Assembly (NCBI GenBank): GCA_947168815.1
Contig: CAMVNG010000002.1
Span: forward strand, 62,001-126,000
Length of the DNA: 64,000 bases
Origin: an uncultured bacterium
GTDB lineage: Bacteria; Patescibacteriota; Gracilibacteria; Absconditabacterales; Absconditicoccaceae
Direction: 5' to 3'
Shown here: piece after piece, positions 7,826 through 37,087 of the stretch
Layout: each line of letters opens with the position of its first letter
How positions within the stretch are numbered: the stretch's first letter is position 1
Translations under genes and position numbers: made by a program
Notes under the pieces: generated by a model
What the model saw: only the letters and a program-made list of their open reading frames with translations
What the model was told of the DNA's origin: nothing
The model's database searches: none

Positions 7826-10800
7826 TTATAAGCTGAAGAGTGTTCCTAGAGGAACAAATTCAGAATAGCTATAATGTACTTTATAATTCATATCCCAAAG
7901 TCTTGCTCTAACAGAGTCATCTTTTTGTAACGTATTTGAATAATCTGCAAATTGACAAGGACAAGAATTACATACAGGTTTTACTAGAGCACATCCATCT
8001 CATTCACAAAGAACATCTGGTAGAGGAGGACATCAATTGTCATCAGGATCTGCAGTACAATTGAGTTCTTTACATGCCTCAGGTCATTCTTTTCCAGGTA
8101 AGTCCTTACATTCATCTAATGAATCAGGAACACAATCACAATCTTCATCACATATAGGAACATCTCAAGGACAGTTTTCACAGTCTTCACCAGGATCTTG
8201 CTGGTGATTTCAACATTTAGTTTGTATTTTACAAAGTACGCAAACAACTCCTTCTGGCATATTAGGATCATTTGGATCACAATCTTCAATAGGAGAACTT
8301 ACTATTCAATCTCAACATACAGCCTGACATTTGTTTCAAAGATCAACAGAACAATTGTCGCACTGTTCATCAGGTTGTTCTTTTCAGTCTCAACAATCAG
8401 GTTGTTCATCGGTAAATCTCTTACAATCAATTCTACATTCATGGTCATTACCATTACCATTTCAGTGGTTAATATCTCAATGATCACATTCTTCATCAGA
8501 ATCTTGATGTCAGTCTCAACAGAAATGGTCTCAACCTATAAGTACACACTGTTCATTACAGATACCATTAACTCCATTTCATGTTCCATAATCACATTGT
8601 TCAGGATCTTCTTTAATACCATTTCAGCATGAAGCACTACATTTTCATACATCTTCTGAACAATTAATACATTGTTCTCAAGTATTTTTGTTACCATCTC
8701 AACACTTTTCTCAATGATTTACACATTTATCAGCAACGTCTTCAGCACAAGTATCACAATCCTCTTTTTCATCTCTTTCTCCATTTCAGCAACTTTCAAC
8801 ATCTGTACAAATCTCGGTACAAATTCCATTAACTCCATTTCAAGTTCCATAATCACATTGTTCTCCTTTCTCTGGTTTTCCATTTCAACACTTAGTTAAA
8901 CATTTCACTCATAAATCTTCAGGACAGGTATTACAGTTCTCATTTACATCATTATCTATCTTTCCATTTCAACATTTTGGTCTAACAACAGTTTTACAGT
9001 GAATAGTACATTGTCATAGTACGCCATTTGCTGTTCATTGATCACATGTTTCTCAAGGATCTGGTAATCCATTTCAACATTTATTGTTTGGATTAATATT
9101 CCTACAATTTATATCACATAGTCAATCTACTCAGTTTCCTGTTCAATTATCACATTCTTCTCCATCTTCTACTTTCTTATTTCAACAACTTCAAGTACAT
9201 AATCATACATCTGTATCACAATTAGAACAGTCTTCATCAGGATCTACTTTTTTATTTCAACAATTAGGATGGTTAGGATCGAAAATCGTACAACTTTCAG
9301 TACATTCATTATCTTTTCAGTTGTTAGGTCCATGATCACATGCCTCATCTCATTCAGGTATTCCATTTCAACATACTGTTTTTACAACATTTTTACATTC
9401 TAGCGTACATTCTCAATCTCTTCCATTTCTTTCTCAACGATCACATTGTTCTCGAGGCTCATCTAGATTCTCGTCTCAACATTTTGTAGCACATTTAGTT
9501 CATAAGTCTATAGGACATGTAGCACAAGTTTCTCATGCATCAATTTTACCATTACCGCATAGAGCTCAAGGTAGAATAGTCGTACAAATAAATGAACAAG
9601 GACCTTTTCAATTGTCTTCTCATGCATCACATTGTTCTCAACGGTCTATATCAGTATGTCCATCTCAACAATACGGTTTTCATGGCGTTACAACCATTTT
9701 ACAATTTTTAGTACAAATACCGTTAATTCAATTTCAAGAACCATAATCACATTGTTCTCATCATTCACGTATTCAATCACCACATGAACTTACACAAGCT
9801 CCAACATCTTCTTTACAATTGCTACAGTTCTCAGCTGGTTCAATGATTCCATTTCAACATTCAGCAGAACACTTTTTTACATCTGATTCACAGCTTTTAC
9901 AAGTTTCATCACCATCAATTTTTCAGTTAGGACATTCACTTACAAGTGTACAATCTATTTTACAGTTATTATTTAGTCAATTAAATGTTCAATCATCACA
10001 TTTTTCCGTTTCTTTATTGTGGATTCCATCTCAGCAGAAATCATCTCAGAAGCATCTTTCTCAAACATCTTCCGCACAAGTCTGACAGGTTTCTCAAGTA
10101 GTATCTCAATCATTACAGTTTGTGGTTTTTTTACAATCCTTTCAACAGATTGAACCTTCTTTTCAGTTATCTGTCTTTAAATCACATTCTTCTCATGCTT
10201 CCTTATCCCATACCCCATCTCAGCAAGAAGGCTTTCTTTCTAACCTACAATCTTTTGTACATCAACTTCCTTCTTTTCAGTTATCATCCTTTTTATCACA
10301 TTTTTCATCTCACTCTTGAATTCCATTTCAGCATTTAGCAGTTGTTCTTTTACAACTAAAAGAACATTTCCCATTAAATCAGTTATTTTCAACTCAATCA
10401 TCACATTCTTCTCATGTTTCAGGAATTCCATTTCAACAAGTATAAGAACATTTAGATCCGAGATCAACTGGGCATGATTCACAATCTTCTCAGACATCAT
10501 ATACTCCATTTCAACATTTAGGATGTGTTGCATCTAATATAGTACACATTAATGTACAATTGCTAGCTGTTGTTCAGTTTTTATCTCAAGCATCACATTG
10601 TTCACCTTGATCTGGCTCACCATTTCAACATTTATCATTCCATCAAATTAATCTACAGTCAGTAGCACAAATTCAGTTAAATCCATTTTCTAGTGTTCAA
10701 TAATCACATTGTTCTCAAGCTTCAAGTATTTTATTTCAGCATGAACCTCTACATGCTTTTACATCTTCACTACAAGTAGAACAATGTTCAGCTTTTTCAA

Positions 10801-13800
10801 TAGTATGATTTCAACAGAATGCATTACATTCTCAAACATCTTCTTTACAATTTTTACAATCTTCTCAAGCTTCTATAATACCATTTCAACAAATTGGAAC
10901 GACACTTCAACTTGTAATACAAATAGCTCATAAATCAGCAGAACATTTTTGGCAGTTTTCGTTCTCATCTATTTTTCAGTTAGGACATTCATCTTCTTCT
11001 CAACATAGGCTTGTACAGTTGACTCCATAGGAACCGTTTTTCTCTTTTCATAAATCACATTTTTCATCTCATTCAATAACTCCATTTCAGCAAACAGCTC
11101 AATGCTCAAATGAACATTCTTTACTACAGATTCAATCAGTTCAATTATCATCTCAATTATCACAGGCTTCATTTGTTTCTTGAATACCATTTCAACAAGA
11201 AGCAAGACAGCTAACTCAAAGATCAGTTGCACATGTTGTACAATTCTCTCCGTTATCTACTTTTCAGTTTCAGCAACCTGGATATTTTGGATCTTTTCTT
11301 GTACAACTCTTAGTACAATCACTTTTACTCGTTCAGTTGTTTTCTCAATCATCACAGGCTTCATTTTTATCTTGTGTTCAGTCTCAACAATAATGAGATT
11401 TACTAATATTTCTACAATCTTTACTACATTGTCAGTCGGTTCAATTTGAAGATCAATTATCACATTCTTCTCAAGGTTCTTGTTCTCAGTTTCAACAGCT
11501 TCAGCTACAAGCTTTTAAATCTTCAGGACAATTGTAGCATGTTTCATTAGCATCAACTTTATTATTTCAACAAGTTGAAGGTTTTGATATAGTTTTACAT
11601 TCAGCACTACATATTCAGTCTTTCCCATTAAAATTACCGCTATCACAATCTTCTCAATATTCTTTTTCTCAATTTCAACAAGTATTGCTACATTTTATTC
11701 ACAAATCAACAGGACATGTTACACAGTTCTCTCATAAGTCTATTTTTCAGTTTCAGCAGAGTGGTTTAAGAAAATTATATTCGGTACATTTTAAAGTACA
11801 ACTACTTCTTGATGTTCCATTATCAACTCAATCATCACACATTTCTCACTCATCTGGTTTTCAGTTTCAACAAAAATGTTGGGAGTCTACATTAATACAT
11901 TGTTCATTACATTTACCATCTTTTCAATTTTTATCTCAGTGATCACATTCTTCTCATGGTTCTAAAGTTCCATTTCAACAGCTTCCTCTACAATTCATTA
12001 CATCTTTTGGACAACTACTACAGGTTTCTGCATCTTCAACTTTTCCATTTCAACAATATGCAGTACATTGACCAACGTCTTGAGGACAAGTTTCACAGGT
12101 TTCACCTTCTTCTATAATTCAATTTCAGCATTCACCTTTCCATGGGATAATACAAGCATCTTTTGAATCTTCAGGGCAGGTATTACAATTTTCTCATTGA
12201 TCAATTTGTCCATTAGGACATTTTCTAATCCAAGTACAATTTGTAGAACAATTTTCTCAGACATTTCAATTCCTTGATTTTCATAAATCGCAATCTTCTC
12301 ATGTTTCAAGCTCTCCGTTTCAACATTTAGGTTTCTTTACAACATCCTTACAATTCGCATCACAACTACTTCAATCAACTCCATTCTTACCAGATCCTTT
12401 ATCACATTCTTCACCATTGCTCTTTTCTTTTGTACCATTTCAGCAATAGATTTTTGGATCGGCTGGAGTGTGGCAATCAAATCCACATATTCAATCTTTA
12501 CCGTTGTTCTCATATCAGTTGTCACAAGTCTCTCATATCTCTTGTTTACCGTTTCAACAAGTTTGTAAACATTTATCTCATAAATCTATCGCACAAGTTT
12601 CACAAGTTTCTCATGGATCAATTTCTTTATTTCAGCATTTAGGAAAATCAGGTAGATATCCGGTACAACTTAATGTACATGAATATCAAGGAGTTCAGTT
12701 TTTTGAACCACCATCACACACTTCAGTTCATTCTCTATCTCAATTTCAGCATATTTGATCGGGATCAACAACTTTACAGTCTTTACTACACAATCAATCT
12801 TTTCAATTGTTATTACTACCGTTATCACATCCTTCTCAAGGTTCTTGAATACCATTTCAACAACTTCAACTACATTGACCAACGTCTTGAGGACAGTTTT
12901 GACATGTTTCAGAGCTTTCAATTTTACCGTTTCAACACAATCAATTACAGCTTCAAGCATCTGTAGGACAGTTAAGACATGTTTCTCCCTCTTCTAAGAT
13001 ACCATTTCAGCATTTTCATTCTCAAGGAGTAAGACAAATATCTTTTAAATCTCTAGGACATGTTTCACAAGTCTCTCATGGATCAACAGTTCCATTTCAA
13101 CAAGTAACAACAGTTCAAGTATCAATACAAATATCTTTTAAATCAGTGGCACAAGTTTGGCAGGTCTCTCATTTATCAATAATACCATTTCAACATGTAG
13201 GATTGTTAATATCAAAGCCAGTACAAGTAATAGTACAAGATCAATCTTTACCATTATTAGGACCATGGTCGCAGGTTTCACCACTATCTATTTTTTCATT
13301 TCAACAAAGAGTAGGGCATTGGTTCATATCTTTAGGACAATTTTCACAAGTTTCACCTTTTTCTTGGATATTGTTAGGACAAGTAGCACTACAACTTCAA
13401 ACGTCTTTTTCGCAGGTAAGACAAGTTTCTCATGGATCAATAATCCCATTTCAACAAGTAACAATAGATCAAGTATCGATACAAATATCTTTTAAATCAA
13501 TAGCACAAGTTTGGCAGGTCTCTCATTTATCAATAATACCATTTCAACATGTAGGATTGTTAATATCAAAGCCAGTACAAGTAATAGTACAAGATCAATC
13601 TTTACCATTATTAGGACCATGGTCGCAGGTTTCACCACTATCTATTTTTTCATTTCAACAAAGACTAGGACATTTTTTTACATCTTTAGGACAATTCTCA
13701 CAAGTTTCACCCTTTTCTTGAATATTGTTAGGACAAGTAGCACTACAACTTCAAACATCTTTTTCACAAGTAAGACAAGTCTCACCATCTTCGATTATAC

Positions 13801-16800
13801 CGTTTCAGCAAACAGGTTTTTTCATAAATTTACAATCAAATCAACATTCGTTATTCTTTCAATTTCTGGTTCATGCATCACAGTCTTCTCATTTATCAAT
13901 TTGTTCATTTCAACAGAGACTTGGACAATATGGCATATCTTTAGGACAATTTAGACAATTCTCTCATTCCTCTCGAATACCATTTGGACAAGTTGCACTA
14001 CATTCACCAACATCTTGAGGACAATTATCACAATTTTCACCTGGATCTATTTTTCAATCTCAGCAAGATGTGATACCTGGCTGAATACAAATATCTCAAA
14101 CATCCATAGGACATGTAACACAAGTTTCTCATGCATCGATTTTTCCATTTCAACAATTAGGAGTTTTATATCTAGTACAAGCAATAGTACATTCTCAATT
14201 TCAGTTGCTTGGTCATAAGTCGCATTCTTCTCAAGCATCAGTTTTACTGTTTCAACAAAGTGATGGACAAGTTGGCATATCAGCAGGACAGTTTTTACAA
14301 TTTTCTGCTTCTTCTTTTATACCGTTTCAACAGAATGCTGTACACTGACCAACATCTTGAGGACATGAAGCACAATCTTCTCCTGGATCTATTTTTCAAT
14401 CTCAACAATTACCTTCATTTTCACAAATATCTCAAATTCCATTAGCATTTAAATCAGCTTGATTAGCATTAGCACGAAAAGGACAATTATCAAGACTACA
14501 AACTCATATATGTCTTTTATACAGTAATTCATCAACATTATCTCAAACAATTAATGAACAGTCAGATTTTTCATATTGAATCATACCTAATAGGTTAGGT
14601 ACTCCATCTCAATCAATGTCATCATCATATAAATCAGGTATTCAATCTTTATCTAAATCACACTTAAGTCCTGAAAAGAGGGCATTAATATTTCAAAGTT
14701 TTAATCAAGTTTGATTCTTAGTTCAGAAACTAATAATACCTTTATTTTCTAATGAAAGGCTTCAACGACTATATTTTGTATTTACTTTAACAACACCTTG
14801 TCTATCTCAAAGAGATAAAATAATATTATCGTCTTTAACATTTTTTTCTGAATAACCAGGTTGTCAATTTAGTGTTGTTGATAGACTATCATTTTCGGAT
14901 AAGCTAAGTCATAGAGTTTTAAATCTAAGGTTAACATAATTAGAAGTCTCAGGAATTATATTATAGGTTTGATTTCATACAACAGATGGATCTTGTATAT
15001 TTAGTGTTGAAGTTGAAATAAGTTCATTACCATTTTTTAGTTTAATTGTTTGTTTGAGAACTTTTTTACCTTGTTCTGTATATGTGTTATAAGTGACAAG
15101 TCTAGAATCAAAGAAACTTGTTGATTTATCATAAGTCCAACTAATGCGATCTATAGAACTTGTAGGAATATTAACAAGTTTTAGTGTTGTAGAAATCCTA
15201 GAGTTTATTTTCTTTATAAGAGGAGAATACGTTGGTGTGAAAGTATAAAATTTTCAATCATCATCAAGGACATCAACGGTTGCAACGGCCATAAGAATAT
15301 TGTTTACATACCCCTTTACTGTGATATTGTTTCTTTCATTTGCTATAAGTGGTGTGAGGAAATTAGCTCATGGTCTTAATTTTTCAGGGATTCAAATTGC
15401 TGAATTTTCCCACTGAAGATAATCAAATTTTCATTGATAAGCTATTTGGAAAGCTCCAGTTTTTTTATTGTTGTCTATACTTGCAGAATCAATGTTTAGA
15501 TTATAAGAAGTATCAGTCGTATTTCAGAAGAAAACTTGTGTAGAAATAATATATTCTCTTCTGCTTTGAGTTGTAACTTTAGCTGAAACAGTATAAGTTC
15601 CCTGATTTGAATATGTATGAGAAACAGATTTACCTTTGGCAGATCAAAGATCTCAGAAATCCCATTCAACTGATGCTGGTGCTTCAGGACCAATAATTTG
15701 GAATTGTACGAATGAAGGAAACTTTTGGTCGAGAGAACTAACTTCAATAAAATAAGCAGCATCATCAACTTGATCTCAGAGTGGAGTTGTGTCTTGAGAA
15801 GGATAATTTTTTAATAGTCCATAGTTAATTCTTCAATTATCATCAACAAGACCAACAGGATTTTTTACTTTATCTCAGTCGATATCATCATCACAAACAT
15901 CACCTAAGTTATCTCAATCTAAATTACTCTGAGTTGGATTATAATTATAAGGACAATTGTCTTCATGATTAGGAATTCAGTCACAATCATAGTCGTTATC
16001 AAATTCACATTTTGTGTGGAGTTCATAAACAAGCTCTATCTTCTCAACAGCATCCATAGGTGAAATAGGACTATTTAGTGCTGTTACATCATCTGCAGTG
16101 ATAATTCAAGCTCTAATGAGTGCATTCACTTCAGCAAGAGGCCAAACATTCTTACCTAAAGAAGGGAATGTCTGAAATCAACAATTTTCTGGATTAAAGG
16201 TACAGTATCCAAGATATGTTGTATATTCAGTTCTATTTGTAATGCTTTGTGTTTCTTTCTCTTTAGATTGAATTACAGCAATTTGATTCGCATTAAAATA
16301 TTTGTATCTATAATCTGTTGGTTTTAATTTAGAGAACCATTCTTTAATATCTTTCCATGGTGCTGCATAATTAAACATTTGTCTGTCCATAAGTAGATTG
16401 CTGAGTGTTTGAAAAAACTCAGCTTTACTAACATTCCATTGTCCACAAAACTGTCCTCAACAGCTTGAAGATCCTAAAGGATATCAGTTCATAACATCAT
16501 TATTTCAAACTTTAGCAACACAGTAATAATAATTTGTTCCATTATAGGTTCCAGAAAGATATCATACATCTGAAAAATATTTTCATGGTTTAACTCTAAA
16601 TGTTGCCCAAAATGATTGATTATATAGTCTAGCCATATCTTCTGTCGGAACAACACAGTCCTGACATTCAACAGCATTTAAAAGCCTTGTAAAGTCATAA
16701 CGAGTAAGTGTTGGTCTAAGTAAGAGATTTCCAATAGGAATATTTAATTGATTTAAATTTTGAAAGAATATTGAATTATATATTGAAGAAGCACTAGTTG

Positions 16801-16900
16801 TATTTTGAGCAGAGACAGAAAAAATGAATCAAAAGAATAGAAATGCGAAAGCTCAAATAATAAATTTAAGGCTTTTCAACTTGTGTATTTGTTTGTTCAT
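7826..16900 (-). CDS. Giant secreted Cys-rich repeat protein (~3024 aa) with TSP3, PKD and many CGNG/DUF4215-like (Myxo-Cys-rich) repeats
   Basis: Same frame verified at start, middle and end. Signal peptide MNKQIHKLKSLKFIIGAFAFLFFGFIFSVSAQN; TSP3-like DNCPYNYNPTQSNLDGDNLGDVCDDDIDGDKV; PKD VEWDFGDLGS…SHTYSNQGTYTVSAKV; repeats such as CCGNGIIDPGETC…CEKDVGSCSATC. Confidence 0.9.
13146..13760 (-). repeat. Near-identical intragenic tandem duplication, 354-bp unit (118 codons)
   Basis: Blocks starting ~13157 and ~13511 share long identical sequence (gcacaagtttggcaggtctctcatttatcaataataccatttcaacatgtaggattgttaatatcaaagcc…). Confidence 0.9.
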
Positions 16901-17070
16901 ATTTTGTATACAGAGTATAAACAGGAAAAAAAGTAATCATCATAACAATTAATTATAATTTTTTTAAAAAAAAGTACAATAATTTGAAGGGAAAATTAAT
17001 GATTTTAACTAGTGTTTTTTGAATTTAGTGATTTAATAATAGAAGAAAAAATTAAAAATTTTTTTATTAC

Positions 17071-30292: not shown

Positions 30293-30718
30293 ATGGCAAA
30301 TTTAATATTATTTAAAAAAGCGGAAAGTTATGCAAATATTAAGCAAGCTTTCTCGAAAGTAATTGAAGAATTTTTGCCAACGCTAACTTCTAGTTATCTA
30401 CCAGAAGCTTATGCATGGCAAAGTTACCTGAAGTATTTTACAGAACACAAAGGTCCGTACATTACTAATCGAGTTGCAAATGTCTATATTAAAGATATTT
30501 GCACCTATCTTGAATTCATCGCATTGCCGCAGACAGCCCAATTTCATCTTTATGATGCAAATGAACGAGTGCAAAAGTATGTGAGAATACATGATGATTA
30601 CTTGATAAAAGGGATTCTAATAGTACCGAATGAGGATTCCTCAAATAGTGTGGAAGATAATGTTATAATTGAGGAAAAAATTGCAACATATGTTAAAGAA
30701 TTCCTCGATAAAAAGTAA
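30293..30718 (+). CDS. Hypothetical protein (141 aa), no in-frame TGA
   Basis: MANLILFKKAESYANIKQAFSKVIEEFLPTLTSSYLPEAYAWQSYLKYF…; own terminator. Confidence 0.7.
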   Translation: MANLILFKKAESYANIKQAFSKVIEEFLPTLTSSYLPEAYAWQSYLKYFTEHKGPYITNRVANVYIKDICTYLEFIALPQTAQFHLYDANERVQKYVRIHDDYLIKGILIVPNEDSSNSVEDNVIIEEKIATYVKEFLDKK

Positions 30719-32648: not shown

Positions 32649-33803
32649 ATGCCAGAAAGAGGAAATTCAGCTCCAGAGCCTCGTGAATATGAACAGGAAA
32701 ATAAGGCTGAAAACTTTAAGGAAGTTGAGGTAAAGAAAGTCCTCGATGAAACAGGTGATCAATTAGACAGGCTATTATTGTCTGTATTTAATAATTGAAA
32801 TTCTCCTGAGCTGAAGTGATGGAATGCTAATGCATTAACTAATGCAGCGGAATACTTGTGAAATTTTTATGAAATAAGAAGAGATGCTCTTTGAAAAGAA
32901 AATGTAGTCTTTAGAATGGATAATGTTACTAAATTCTTAGAGACAATTTCTAAAAGATTAGCTGAAAAAGGAGCACCATGATATACGGCGATGTCAAATG
33001 AAAAGCTTTTTTGAGCTGTTATCTTGGCAATTCAAATAGCTTTAGAATCTATTAGTCGCCCAATTCCTCAAATTGGAAATTATGATGTTTGAGTAATTAG
33101 TGGTACGCTGGATGATAATACAAAAAGATGTATAGAAGATTTCCAAAGAGATCATAGATGACTTACTGTGGATGGTAAACCATGAAAGGGAACTATCGAA
33201 GCGATATTAAAGGATTTGAAAAATCCATCTATTGTATCTTCAAAACCAATTGAAAATGCAAGAAAGAGGGATGTGGTTGTACCAAGTGTAAGAGAAATGA
33301 TGGAATCTCCTGTAGAATGGAGTTTTGAGTGATTTACTTCTTGAGAAGCATTAACACCAGAACAAAAGGCTACAATTGATAACCAATTAAGAGCATGGAG
33401 ATCTCCAGTTACTGCAGATATGGTTCAAGACTCATGTAGGTCAACAGGTGTTCCTGTAGAATATCTTCTTGGTTTTATGCAAAATGATAGTAGAGTAGGA
33501 ACTATGTGAAAATGAGCAAGGACTCGTAATCCATGAAATGTTTGAAATACAGATAATTGAGGTACAAGACGTTATGCTACATGGGAGGAATGAGTACAGT
33601 GATGTGCAGAAAATTTACAAATGCGTATTGATTTGTATAGAAAAAAATGTAATTGAAGCGCTCCAACAGCAAAAGAACTCGCAACTTGAAAATCTTCAAG
33701 CGGTAAACGATTCTTTTATAGATACATGAGTGCTCCAGGTGGACCTAGTAGTGTGGCAAGTATGGTTAGTAAATGGGCATCAAGATTGAGAAATAAGAGA
33801 TAA
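32649..33803 (+). CDS. Peptidoglycan-binding and lysozyme/transglycosylase-like protein
   Basis: PG_binding-like (…ISGTLDDNTKRCIEDFQRDHRGLTVDGKPGKGTIEAIL…) followed by …STGVPVEYLLGFMQNDSRVGTMGKGARTRNPGNVGNTDNGG…. Confidence 0.7.
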
Positions 33804-33852: not shown

Positions 33853-33888
33853 ATTATTTTTTTGTAGGATATTTTAAATATTTATTGT

Positions 33889-33924
33889 TAAAAAAATGAG
33901 GATTGTGAAATCAACAATCCTCAT
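33889..33924 (-). terminator. Intrinsic terminator just downstream of the TGA stop of the TldD-like gene
   Basis: Minus strand ATGAGGATTGT-tgatttc-ACAATCCTCATTTTTTTA. Confidence 0.9.
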
Positions 33925-33930
33925 ATTTAT

Positions 33931-35604
33931 TCAGTATTCAAAGCTCGTTTTTTTTGTTCTGAGCTTTTCGGGCAGATACTTGTCTCTTTTAGAACTATAG
34001 GTATGTAAAGGTTCAGGTAATGGGTTTGGCGCCCAATTAATTCCATAAACACTTACCGCAGGGGCGAATTCCTCAGTTGGAACCCAACCACTTTCAGCTC
34101 CACAATATCCATTAGTTCTTCCATAATGATTACTCACTTCAATAATAGAACTAAGAAAATCAGTAAGGTTTGCAGACAATGTTCCACCGTGGAAATAACT
34201 CTTATTCCCGTTTTTATTGACTTTGATAAGGTAATCAACGGTGAGTTCAAAGGTTCCAGTCTCGATGTTTACTTCTCCAGCGTGAGATTCCACAATATAG
34301 TAGTACCCAAACTTTTCAAGAAGCTGTTTCTTTAGGTCGTCTAGACTGTGAGTGCTAGTACTATAAACCTTTAGGTTTGAAACACGAGGTTCTGGTTTTT
34401 TGGGACGAGGAATGATTTTCTCAAAGACATCACTATTTTCATCTTGTTCTTTAACAAAGCTTCCTGCAAGTGAATGTCCGTTATTCTCTTTGTGAAGACG
34501 TGCTGAAGAGTTCTTATCAAGAAGATAATTTTCAACAACTCCATTTTTGAGAAGACAGACGTCTTTTGCCGGGGTGCCTTGCATATCATACTCATAATGA
34601 GCAACCATAGTTTTATCTCTTGGACAGTCCCAAATCTCGAGATTCTTTAGAGCTTTCATAAAGCCATTCTTTGCTATATTTTTTCCGAGTTTGCCTTTGA
34701 ATATGGTCGAAGTTTCATTGGCAATGTAATAACCGGAAAGCATATGGCCAGCAAGGGCTTCATGACATAAGGTTGCCATGGCAGAAGGCATAAATAGATA
34801 CGGATAGATTCCACTTTCTAGTTGGCTCCGATTCGTACTATATAAAGCCTTCTGTAATTCATTTCGAATATCTTTAAAATAATTTTTTAAGATACCGAAA
34901 TTTAATGCCATTTGGCTACAGGAGACATCATACTCACGTTTTTTTGAGTTGAATAGATATCCATGAGCTCTTCCTTCAACAAAATCTTGATGCTGAATTA
35001 TTCTATTTTTTGAAGAATCAACAACAATCCAGACTTTGCGTTTGGAATATAGACATCCTGAAACACTATCAACATGAGGCACTAGAAAGAAATCTTGGAG
35101 AAGCTCAGAGAATTCAGTCTGAATTTCTTTTGAAGGATATTCGATTTCAGCTAGCTGAAACGCGGAATCATCCATATAAATAGGCGGAGTCTTCTCTTCT
35201 ACATAATACTTATTACATTTGGTTTTAGAAGTATAAAACTTATCGAATAGAGCATCAATAATGTTAGTAACTTCGCACCATAATACGGATAATATTCCTT
35301 CATAGGATTTCAGGTAGAGGTCTTGAAATACATCAACATGACGAAAAATTTTTGTCTTTTTTTCGATACATACTGTTATGAGTATTTCGGGAGTATCAAT
35401 CTCTCTATCAATGACACGTGCAATCCCATTTAAGTAAGATACTTCATAAGAAATATTACTTAAGAATGAGATACGAATATCACTGATTGAGTGAGCAACT
35501 TTTTCTCCAAAGGGATCTTCCCTTTTGAGTTTTAGGTTCATTGTCCTTTGAACTATGAGTTCAAGGGCTTGAACTAGAGGGAGATAGTTGAATGTTTTTT
35601 TCAT
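33931..35604 (-). CDS. TldD/PmbA-family metallopeptidase-like protein, no in-frame TGA, ending at TGA
   Basis: HExxxH in …ATLCHEALAGHMLSGYYI…, …YEYDMQGTPAKDVCLLKNGVVENYLLD…; 557 aa with ~28 Gly (hand count), all GGN. Confidence 0.8.
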   Translation of the reverse strand: MKKTFNYLPLVQALELIVQRTMNLKLKREDPFGEKVAHSISDIRISFLSNISYEVSYLNGIARVIDREIDTPEILITVCIEKKTKIFRHVDVFQDLYLKSYEGILSVLWCEVTNIIDALFDKFYTSKTKCNKYYVEEKTPPIYMDDSAFQLAEIEYPSKEIQTEFSELLQDFFLVPHVDSVSGCLYSKRKVWIVVDSSKNRIIQHQDFVEGRAHGYLFNSKKREYDVSCSQMALNFGILKNYFKDIRNELQKALYSTNRSQLESGIYPYLFMPSAMATLCHEALAGHMLSGYYIANETSTIFKGKLGKNIAKNGFMKALKNLEIWDCPRDKTMVAHYEYDMQGTPAKDVCLLKNGVVENYLLDKNSSARLHKENNGHSLAGSFVKEQDENSDVFEKIIPRPKKPEPRVSNLKVYSTSTHSLDDLKKQLLEKFGYYYIVESHAGEVNIETGTFELTVDYLIKVNKNGNKSYFHGGTLSANLTDFLSSIIEVSNHYGRTNGYCGAESGWVPTEEFAPAVSVYGINWAPNPLPEPLHTYSSKRDKYLPEKLRTKKTSFEY

Positions 35605-35724
35605 AAGCAATATTTTTTGTTGTTATTGTTTTTCTATTTATATTCGATTGTATATTACACAAATAAGATGTTTAATTCAACAAAAAAAGTCCTTACCAAT
35701 AAGTAAAGGACTTAATAATATTGC

Positions 35725-35897
35725 GTTCGTGATGAGACTTGAACTCATGACCTTCGCATTTAGACAAACCGACGCTTACAATAGCTAGCATTGACTGCAT
35801 TGAGATTTTTGGCCTATCTCTGTGCAGTTGGTAATACGTCATAGGGCTTGTTTTTGGTCCTAAGGGTGCGAAACTCTACCAACTGAGCTACACGAAC
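35725..35897 (-). tRNA. tRNA gene interrupted in the anticodon loop by ~101 nt; identity unresolved
   Basis: Minus strand: acceptor GTTCGTG/CACGAAC, D-arm GCTC-AGTTGGTA-GAGT, anticodon stem TCGCA/TGCGA, variable AGGTC, T-arm ATGAG-TTCAAGT-CTCAT; 108 nt lie between the anticodon-stem halves instead of 7. Confidence 0.8.
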
Positions 35898-36055: not shown

Positions 36056-37087
36056 ATGAAATTAGATGGAAAAAGCATCCAGGCTGCAATTGCGCATCTT
36101 GTAGAAGAATATAGACTTGATCCATATCAAGTGCTTGATATTATGAGATCATGAATAAAATCAGGATTTAAAAAAGATTATCCGGAATATAGAAAATCAG
36201 ATATTGCTGTAAATATTGAAGATGATTGATCTATTAAAGTATATAAAGTGCTAACAGTTGTTGAAGAATTAGAAGATGAAGAGACTCAAATCCTTCTTGC
36301 TGATGCTAAAAAAGAGAGAAAAGATATAGAAATTGGAGAACCTCTCTTAACAGATGTTACTCCTGAGAATATGGAACTTTCAAGAATCGCAGCACAAGCA
36401 GCTGCTCAAACTATTAAGCAAGGTATCAAAAATATAGAAAGAGAAAGATTCTACGATAAATTCCAAGATAAAGAGGGACAACTTTTAAAAGCAAAAGTTA
36501 TTAAAGTTCATACTGATAGTGTAATTCTTGATATTGATGGAACTACTGTAGTTTTAGCTCCTGAAAGTCAGATTCCTAATAGACCATATGAGGTTGGAGA
36601 AGAAGTGTTTGTATTCCTTAAAAAAATTAGTAAAGAAGCTTGAAGTATTGTTCTAGATATTACACAAACATCTCCTGAATATGTTGTTGCTATCCTTGAA
36701 AAACTTGTACCTGAATTTGAAGAAGGTGTTGTTCGTATAGATAAAATATGAAGAATAGCTTGAAAGAAAACAAAGATCATTGTTTCAAGTACAGATGAAT
36801 CTATAGATCCAGTATGAGTTTTTGTTGGACACAAATGAGATAGAATTAATACAGTTCTTTCTCTATTGGATGGTGAAAAAGTTGATTTTGTTGAAAATAT
36901 AGATGATCCAAAAGAATTGATAACAAGACTTTTAAAGCCAGCACAAATTAACTCTATAGATATTAAGGACGGAAATAAAGCTGTTGTTAAGGTTGATGAA
37001 AGTCAAAAGCCTTTGGCTATAGGTAAAGCTGCAAGTAACATAAAATTAGCTACTCAGCTTAGCTGATATTCAATTGAAGTAATCTAA
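36056..37087 (+). CDS. nusA: Transcription termination/antitermination factor NusA
   Basis: MKLDGKSIQAAIAHLVEEYRLDPYQVLDIMRSGIKSGFKKDYPEYR…VRIDKIGRIAGKKTKIIVSSTDESIDPVGVFVGHKGDRINTVLSLLDGEKVDFVEN…. Confidence 0.9.

Follow-up and report, generated by a model that had tools for sequence, protein, structure and literature searches.

How does a gene end at UGA in a cell that is expected to read this codon as glycine? The question is raised by a TldD-like gene in the stretch of DNA analysed here, which is called the window below (64,000 nt, G000:C2:62001-126000, from an assembly of 1.29 Mb). A sequence-only reading of the window had described the gene, its 28 Gly codons, its TGA end, the terminator behind it and the TAA further on, and all of these hold. 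The following features are found at its 3′ end:

33934 to 35604, minus strand: coding sequence of the TldD-like protein (557 aa), with 28 GGN codons for glycine and 0 internal UGA
33931 to 33933, minus strand: UGA codon, aligned with the stops of all homologues (UGA, UAA or UAG)
33896 to 33924, minus strand: terminator hairpin ATGAGGATTGT-TGATTTC-ACAATCCTCAT, 11 pairs, beginning 6 nt 3′ of the UGA
33889 to 33895, minus strand: T7 tract of the terminator, the predicted transcript end, ahead of the next in-frame stop
33874 to 33930, minus strand: read-through tail under table 25, with Gly558, INMRIVDFTILIFLTINI and TAA at 33876-33874, unconserved among the homologues

Under table 25 the protein would be extended by Gly and 18 further residues up to this TAA, which is the next in-frame stop of the gene and lies past the T tract.

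G000 uses table 25. UGA accounts for 57% of the Gly codons (7785/13596) in 554 ORFs from ~660 kb of this genome. RF1 is the only full-length class-I release factor found in G000, with 457.6 bits for TIGR00019 (cut-off 423) and 277 bits for TIGR00020, under the cut-off of 370. RF2, whose presence would matter for a UGA stop, has no match above cut-off in any sampled genome of this family; it is present in most other families of the same class. A tRNA with anticodon UCA is located at C1:457234-457307 (called as SeC by ARAGORN), and a tmRNA at C7:5235-5612. With no RF2, RF1 only and a tRNA(UCA), UGA should be decoded as glycine without termination in the G000 cell. ORFs were called mechanically in roughly half of G000 and in smaller portions of the other genomes; the genomes are mostly metagenome assemblies. 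The UGA share of Gly codons is uneven inside the family, with a median of 0.24 in G028 versus 0.6-0.7 elsewhere, and several nusA genes of the family carry no UGA (G028, G011, G012, G013 and G020 are noted for varying UGA use).

Six relatives of the TldD-like protein belong to the same family, with 31-47% identity. None of the seven genes carries an internal UGA (0/7), though their code-25 neighbours use UGA freely. Their stops are UGA in G000, G001 and G016, UAA in G040 and G041, and UAG in G002 and G034, and in most cases a terminator is found close 3′ of the stop. An alignment of the C-termini places KTSFEY-UGA, GDKYEV-UGA, GEKYEY-UAG and EEYEI-UAA at the same position, and a conserved C-terminal extension matching the read-through is present in no homologue. 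Since UGA, UAA and UAG replace each other at one aligned C-terminus, the UGA of the TldD-like gene is a stop by descent. The alignment thus settles the earlier suggestion that UGA was the real stop of this gene.

Two simple explanations can be weighed against these comparisons. The gene could be an ordinary table 25 gene whose last Gly codon is UGA by chance and whose terminator overlaps the coding 3′ end; table 25 does read on to a UAA 18 codons later, and RF2 is absent. However, the aligned homologues stop exactly at this position with UAA or UAG, and ThyA and other genes of the class described below share the same architecture, so this explanation is very improbable. An assembly or binning artefact might also be suspected in metagenome assemblies. 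It is hardly credible here, as the gene is embedded in a 260-kb contig with host-code genes on both sides and the pattern is seen in seven separate assemblies.

The protein itself matches the PmbA_TldD_3rd domain (PF19289) with 91.6 bits (cut-off 22). The best Foldseek hits of its structure model (pLDDT 69.6, medium confidence) are all TldD/TldE/PmbA, with E=1.4e-21 and TM 0.60/0.70. Residues H281, E282, H287 and C501 are invariant in the seven homologues, and the alignment shows one extra residue between the histidines compared with E. coli TldD. Domain and fold are shared with the TldD/PmbA (TldE) metalloproteases (E. coli 5NJ5), and the conserved HE, H and C-terminal CG of the protein may correspond to theirs. 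The identity to 5NJ5 is ~15%, however, and the protein differs further in its HEAxAGH motif with one extra residue and in its length of 557 aa. The N-terminal domain PF01523 has no match anywhere in G000, while the control was positive in 10/14 genomes. This search gives no TldE partner in G000 either, though an equally divergent partner would escape it. In contrast to TldD/PmbA, neither a partner gene nor a PF01523 domain was found in G000 for the gene, and its distribution is narrow. The protein may work as a TldD-type metalloprotease; strict family membership is not claimed.

Upstream of the gene and around it the following features are found:

35605 to 35634, minus strand: A-rich leader GAAAAACAATAACAACAAAAAATATTGCTT without Shine-Dalgarno sequence, a signature common to the UGA-free class
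35652 to 35680, minus strand: promoter-like element TTGAAT-17 nt-TAATAT, a pattern match
35682 to 35713, minus strand: upstream terminator-like hairpin AAGTCCTTTACTTATTGGTAAGGACTT with T tract, as read from the sequence
35724 to 35897, minus strand: tRNA-like gene whose anticodon arm carries an insertion of ~107 nt (RF00005, 48.1 bits)
36056 to 37087, plus strand: nusA, a host-code neighbour with 8 UGA, 86-87% identity in two congeners
32649 to 33803, plus strand: convergent host-code neighbour with 20 UGA and a PG_binding_1 domain
30293 to 30718, plus strand: small ORF with no UGA and only 2 Gly codons, a candidate class member

At a position similar to that of the promoter-like element, the homologues show TATTGACTT...TATATT, again by pattern match. 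The hairpin at 35682-35713 is predicted to shield the TldD-like gene from upstream transcription. The tRNA-like gene, located between the TldD-like gene and nusA, was overlooked by ARAGORN. The small ORF at 30293-30718 is a possible further member of the UGA-free class, and its congener homologue (L190:5319-5780, 47%) is likewise UGA-free. The neighbours of the TldD-like gene are cellular (enolase, nusA and others), and no phage or prophage setting is observed. The largest gene of the window is a 3040-aa ORF at 7826-16948 on the minus strand with 240 in-frame UGA codons.

G000, G001 and G002 belong to one genus, with NusA identities of 86-89%. The TldD-like protein of G000 shows only 46% identity to those of G001 and G002, whereas the latter two reach 64-68% with the proteins of another genus, and in both congeners the gene is absent beside nusA. 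This contrast in identities within and across genera shows that the TldD-like gene has moved horizontally. A standard-code donor of the family, envisaged in the sequence-only reading, was not found: a single-sequence search and an alignment motif scan over 85,488 species give no standard-code relative, and IMG/VR, plasmids and phages give no match to the family. The matched relatives that carry names are SR1, Gracilibacteria or Patescibacteria, and outside the family the nearest match is to DPANN archaea only (33%). A second TldD-like fragment, C-terminal and with 53% identity, is located near a contig end in G002 (L010, G002:C4:45087-45182).

The absence of UGA from the TldD-like gene goes far past what chance would give. 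It is the top UGA-free outlier by Gly count among the 554 ORFs, and about 50 UGA-free genes are found in the sampled half of G000. Exactly 0 UGA is seen in 30 of the 449 G000 genes with at least 8 Gly codons, versus ~0.3 expected at the genome UGA frequency. The UGA fraction per gene is bimodal in G000, with only a few genes slightly above zero, most of them of the EF-Tu/ribosomal type. The UGA-free genes form a discrete class, which recurs in G002, G040 and G016. In the last 40 bases before the start, 49% of them carry an AACAAAWA leader versus 3% of the host-like genes. Their GC is 0.368 versus 0.296 and their GC3 0.34 versus 0.18, and an own terminator is usual. ThyA, thymidine kinase, PhoH, acyltransferases, lipoprotein-like proteins and many orphans are among the members. 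TGA outside the reading frame shows no depletion in the class genes (22.5 and 48.7 per 1000 codons), and the exclusion of UGA is therefore frame-specific. A difference in Shine-Dalgarno sequences is seen in neither class nor host genes. A 10-kb stretch of L239 (G002 C22:1-20000) carries thymidine kinase, acyltransferase, ThyA with a UGA stop and orphans, all UGA-free.

The class stops are TAA 29, TAG 12 and TGA 9, where the label "UGA-ended" is a mechanical one for members without homologues. Most UGA-ended members have a hairpin and T tract within ~50 nt. The next UAA or UAG lies at or past the T tract in most of these, namely TldD (three genomes), ThyA, L065:7974, L049:18011, L013:9677 and G040 L207, and their transcripts would thus lack a usable stop. 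The stop position of ThyA is UGA in G000 and G002 alike.

Could UGA simply be a slow or inaccurate Gly codon that highly expressed genes shun? In the low-UGA T-leader genes, which are presumably highly expressed (such as EF-Tu and EF-Ts), just 11% of the Gly codons are UGA, and the class genes do have strong-looking promoters, leaders and terminators. However, the class differs from the low-UGA genes in its codon signature, with GGC at 16% versus 0%, CAG at 46% versus 7% and AGA at 42% versus 86%. Ile AUA makes up 51% in the TldD-like gene of the G034/G016 genus and 5% in the low-UGA genes of G000. Such translational selection would also leave the UGA at the stop position unexplained, and we regard it as quite improbable.

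For at least some members an origin in standard-code bacteria is indicated by protein similarity. A GNAT class gene of G016 has 52% identity to Bacteroidota proteins and ~31% to others. It is located beside an acyltransferase gene at L215:12893-14773 (G016 C2), and the two UGA-free genes resemble an imported lipid-synthesis pair. A Bacteroidota leader as the source of the A-rich motif was rejected, as a Bacteroides control shows no AACAA/ACAAA enrichment (0.20 versus 0.63). A Bacteroidota promoter was rejected as well, the −7 motif being unenriched in the class. Integron-like attC sites at the class hairpins were also considered, and these have the appearance of ordinary terminators.

Orthologue comparisons reveal how UGA behaves in these genes inside code-25 chromosomes. 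At conserved Gly positions of class orthologues in G002 and G000, 0 differences involve UGA versus ~51 of the GGN-GGN′ type, while the host orthologues of the same two genomes show 192 and 35. Thymidine kinase has the same flanking genes in G001 and G002 and a third-position divergence of 0.34, versus 0.33 for the host. It contains 0 UGA in five of five genomes, and its fourfold GC is near that of the host in most. In G034 and G016 the locus of the TldD-like gene, together with a divergent 146-aa UGA-free gene, is collinear over 10 kb. The two TldD genes have 0/59 Gly codons as UGA, and their stops are UAG in G034 and UGA in G016. For TldD and its neighbour, UGA-involving versus GGN′ differences are 0 versus 16, and for the flanks 35 versus 12 (Fisher p=8e-8). 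The chance that the 24 conserved Gly sites of this pair are free of UGA is estimated at ~2e-6. Codon use in the TldD-like gene of this genus is close to that of the host, with Arg AGA at 69% versus 66% and Ile AUA at 51% versus 56% in the G016 host. The fourfold GC3 of TldD is 0.151 versus 0.127 for the host in G016, and 0.287 versus 0.105 in G000. At least two members, thymidine kinase and the TldD-like gene of another genus, are thus found at conserved code-25 loci with largely host-like codon use and no UGA.

These two cases bear directly on plain recent horizontal transfer, in which all UGA-free genes are young standard-code imports, too new to have gained UGA codons. The patchy distribution, the higher GC, the foreign codon dialect seen in the GC3 values above, the GC3 of 0.46 for ThyA and the Bacteroidota affinity of one member are all in line with such transfer. 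But thymidine kinase and the G034/G016 TldD genes are syntenic and largely ameliorated and still UGA-free, and the estimate of ~2e-6 also argues against it. Recency is therefore not sufficient, and plain recent transfer of the whole class is unlikely. The sequence-only reading was concerned with a single gene; the TldD-like gene is one among dozens in a class that is partly vertical, which is more than simple recent transfer can account for. The comparisons suggest that UGA has been specifically excluded during descent within code-25 chromosomes.

The main rival to selection against UGA is recurrent allele replacement. Here the loci persist, but recombination with a standard-code or dual-code reservoir would repeatedly replace their alleles, so that each copy is young. 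The third positions of TldD are more diverged than the flanks in both syntenic pairs (0.58 versus 0.42 in G034/G016 and 0.50 versus 0.33 in G001/G002), which makes replacement from a UGA-free reservoir possible at both loci. Identity falls sharply from 88% to 71% at the gene boundary beside a conserved RNA element (see below). Thymidine kinase, ThyA and PhoH are widespread in phages or plasmids, and the code-11-compatible phages predicted for these bacteria are a possible reservoir (PMC10746230). On the other hand, thymidine kinase is syntenic, its third-position divergence is host-like and its fourfold GC near-host in several genomes, and no reservoir copy was found for TldD in IMG/VR, plasmids and phages or for ThyA in IMG/VR. 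The higher synonymous divergence weakens the G001/G002 TldD pair as proof of vertical descent, and we have therefore moved the weight to thymidine kinase and the G034/G016 pair. Replacement is doubtful as an explanation of the class, though it deserves to be taken seriously.

We favour the reading that the UGA-free genes are imported standard-code genes that selection has preserved in a form readable under that code, and assign it a probability of about 0.5; the selection is deduced from the absence of UGA. The TldD-like gene would have brought its promoter, A-rich leader, UGA stop and terminator along when it entered the UGA=Gly lineage. UGA would then be excluded because the genes must be readable wherever UGA means stop. 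Such reading might take place in a partner cell with the standard code, or serve a phage or another mobile element that works in both kinds of cell. In the RF2-less G000 cell, the ribosome would insert Gly at the UGA of the TldD-like gene and, with no stop in between, reach the mRNA 3′ end left by the terminator, where tmRNA would release it. With no RF2 and a transcript without usable stop, the UGA-ended members would be expected to be poorly expressed in this cell. A bolder version, speculative and rather unlikely, is that the class is a second gene dialect kept for partners, with the standard code, UGA stops and a leader and promoter meant for another ribosome and polymerase. These genes would act after transfer to a standard-code host or be shuttled by dual-use elements. 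If this were true, the recoded genome would contain one gene dialect for its own use and, next to it, another for export.

Code reassignment is often held to wall recoded lineages off from foreign genes. The genome described here is a natural recoded one with dozens of apparently standard-code genes, some with stops that the cell should not recognise and some long resident without the reassigned codon, and the firewall idea becomes testable in nature. The combination of no UGA and an A-rich leader provides a screen for imported or exported genes in many code-25 genomes. For annotation, uniform use of table 25 would add false tails to the proteins of UGA-ended class members.

A literature search, thin on subscription papers, turned up no account of a comparable class of chromosomal genes. 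The closest case is that of code-11-compatible phages without in-frame TGA, predicted for Gracilibacteria and Absconditabacteria, whose genes, it is argued, can be read under either code (PMC10746230). The class genes are similar to these phage genes in having no in-frame TGA and in their link to UGA=Gly hosts. The phages, however, have backup stops close behind TGA, whereas the class genes are chromosomal single-gene units; the next in-frame stop of TldD is 18 codons on and past the terminator, and those of ThyA and others are at or past it. In recoded E. coli lacking RF1, tmRNA rescue was measured at unassigned codons and foreign stop codons (PMC6207430). As in that system, the imported genes would end at a codon that the cell cannot terminate, and tmRNA rescue is expected. 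Unlike it, the case here is natural, UGA is a sense codon (Gly) and not unassigned, and the transcripts are expected to terminate ahead of the next stop. For Vampirococcus lugosii, 126 HGT genes were reported and UGA read-through was proposed to spoil foreign gene expression; the accessible part of that account describes no UGA-free gene class, leader or long-term exclusion of UGA (PMC8080830).

A non-coding element of 790 nt is found upstream of the TldD-like gene in G001 and G002. About 6 copies are present in G000 and at least 7 in G002, including the following of ~720-790 nt in the congeners and five in G000:

L013:15764-16551: copy in G002
L014:2712-3500: copy in G001
C5:16338-17060: copy in G000
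C2:219125-219793: copy in G000
C1:64111-64846: copy in G000
C1:23627-24318: copy in G000
C11:1792-2541: copy in G000

Eleven copies back one structure of 186 pairs with strong covariation, in which 94.7% of the cells are paired. Both sides have changed in 78 pairs versus 37 in shuffles, and 0/500 shuffles reach 78. The folding energy is -117, compared with -54 for the opposite strand and with -3 to -10 after column shuffling. A search with two copies gives no Rfam family above gathering score, and the likeness to the large ornate RNAs ROOL and GOLLD, compared through Rfam alone, is in size only. The element is possibly a new large structured RNA family, apparently undescribed and multi-copy in the genus. 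It has a promoter-like start and a terminator-like hairpin at its end, and several copies abut UGA-free genes.
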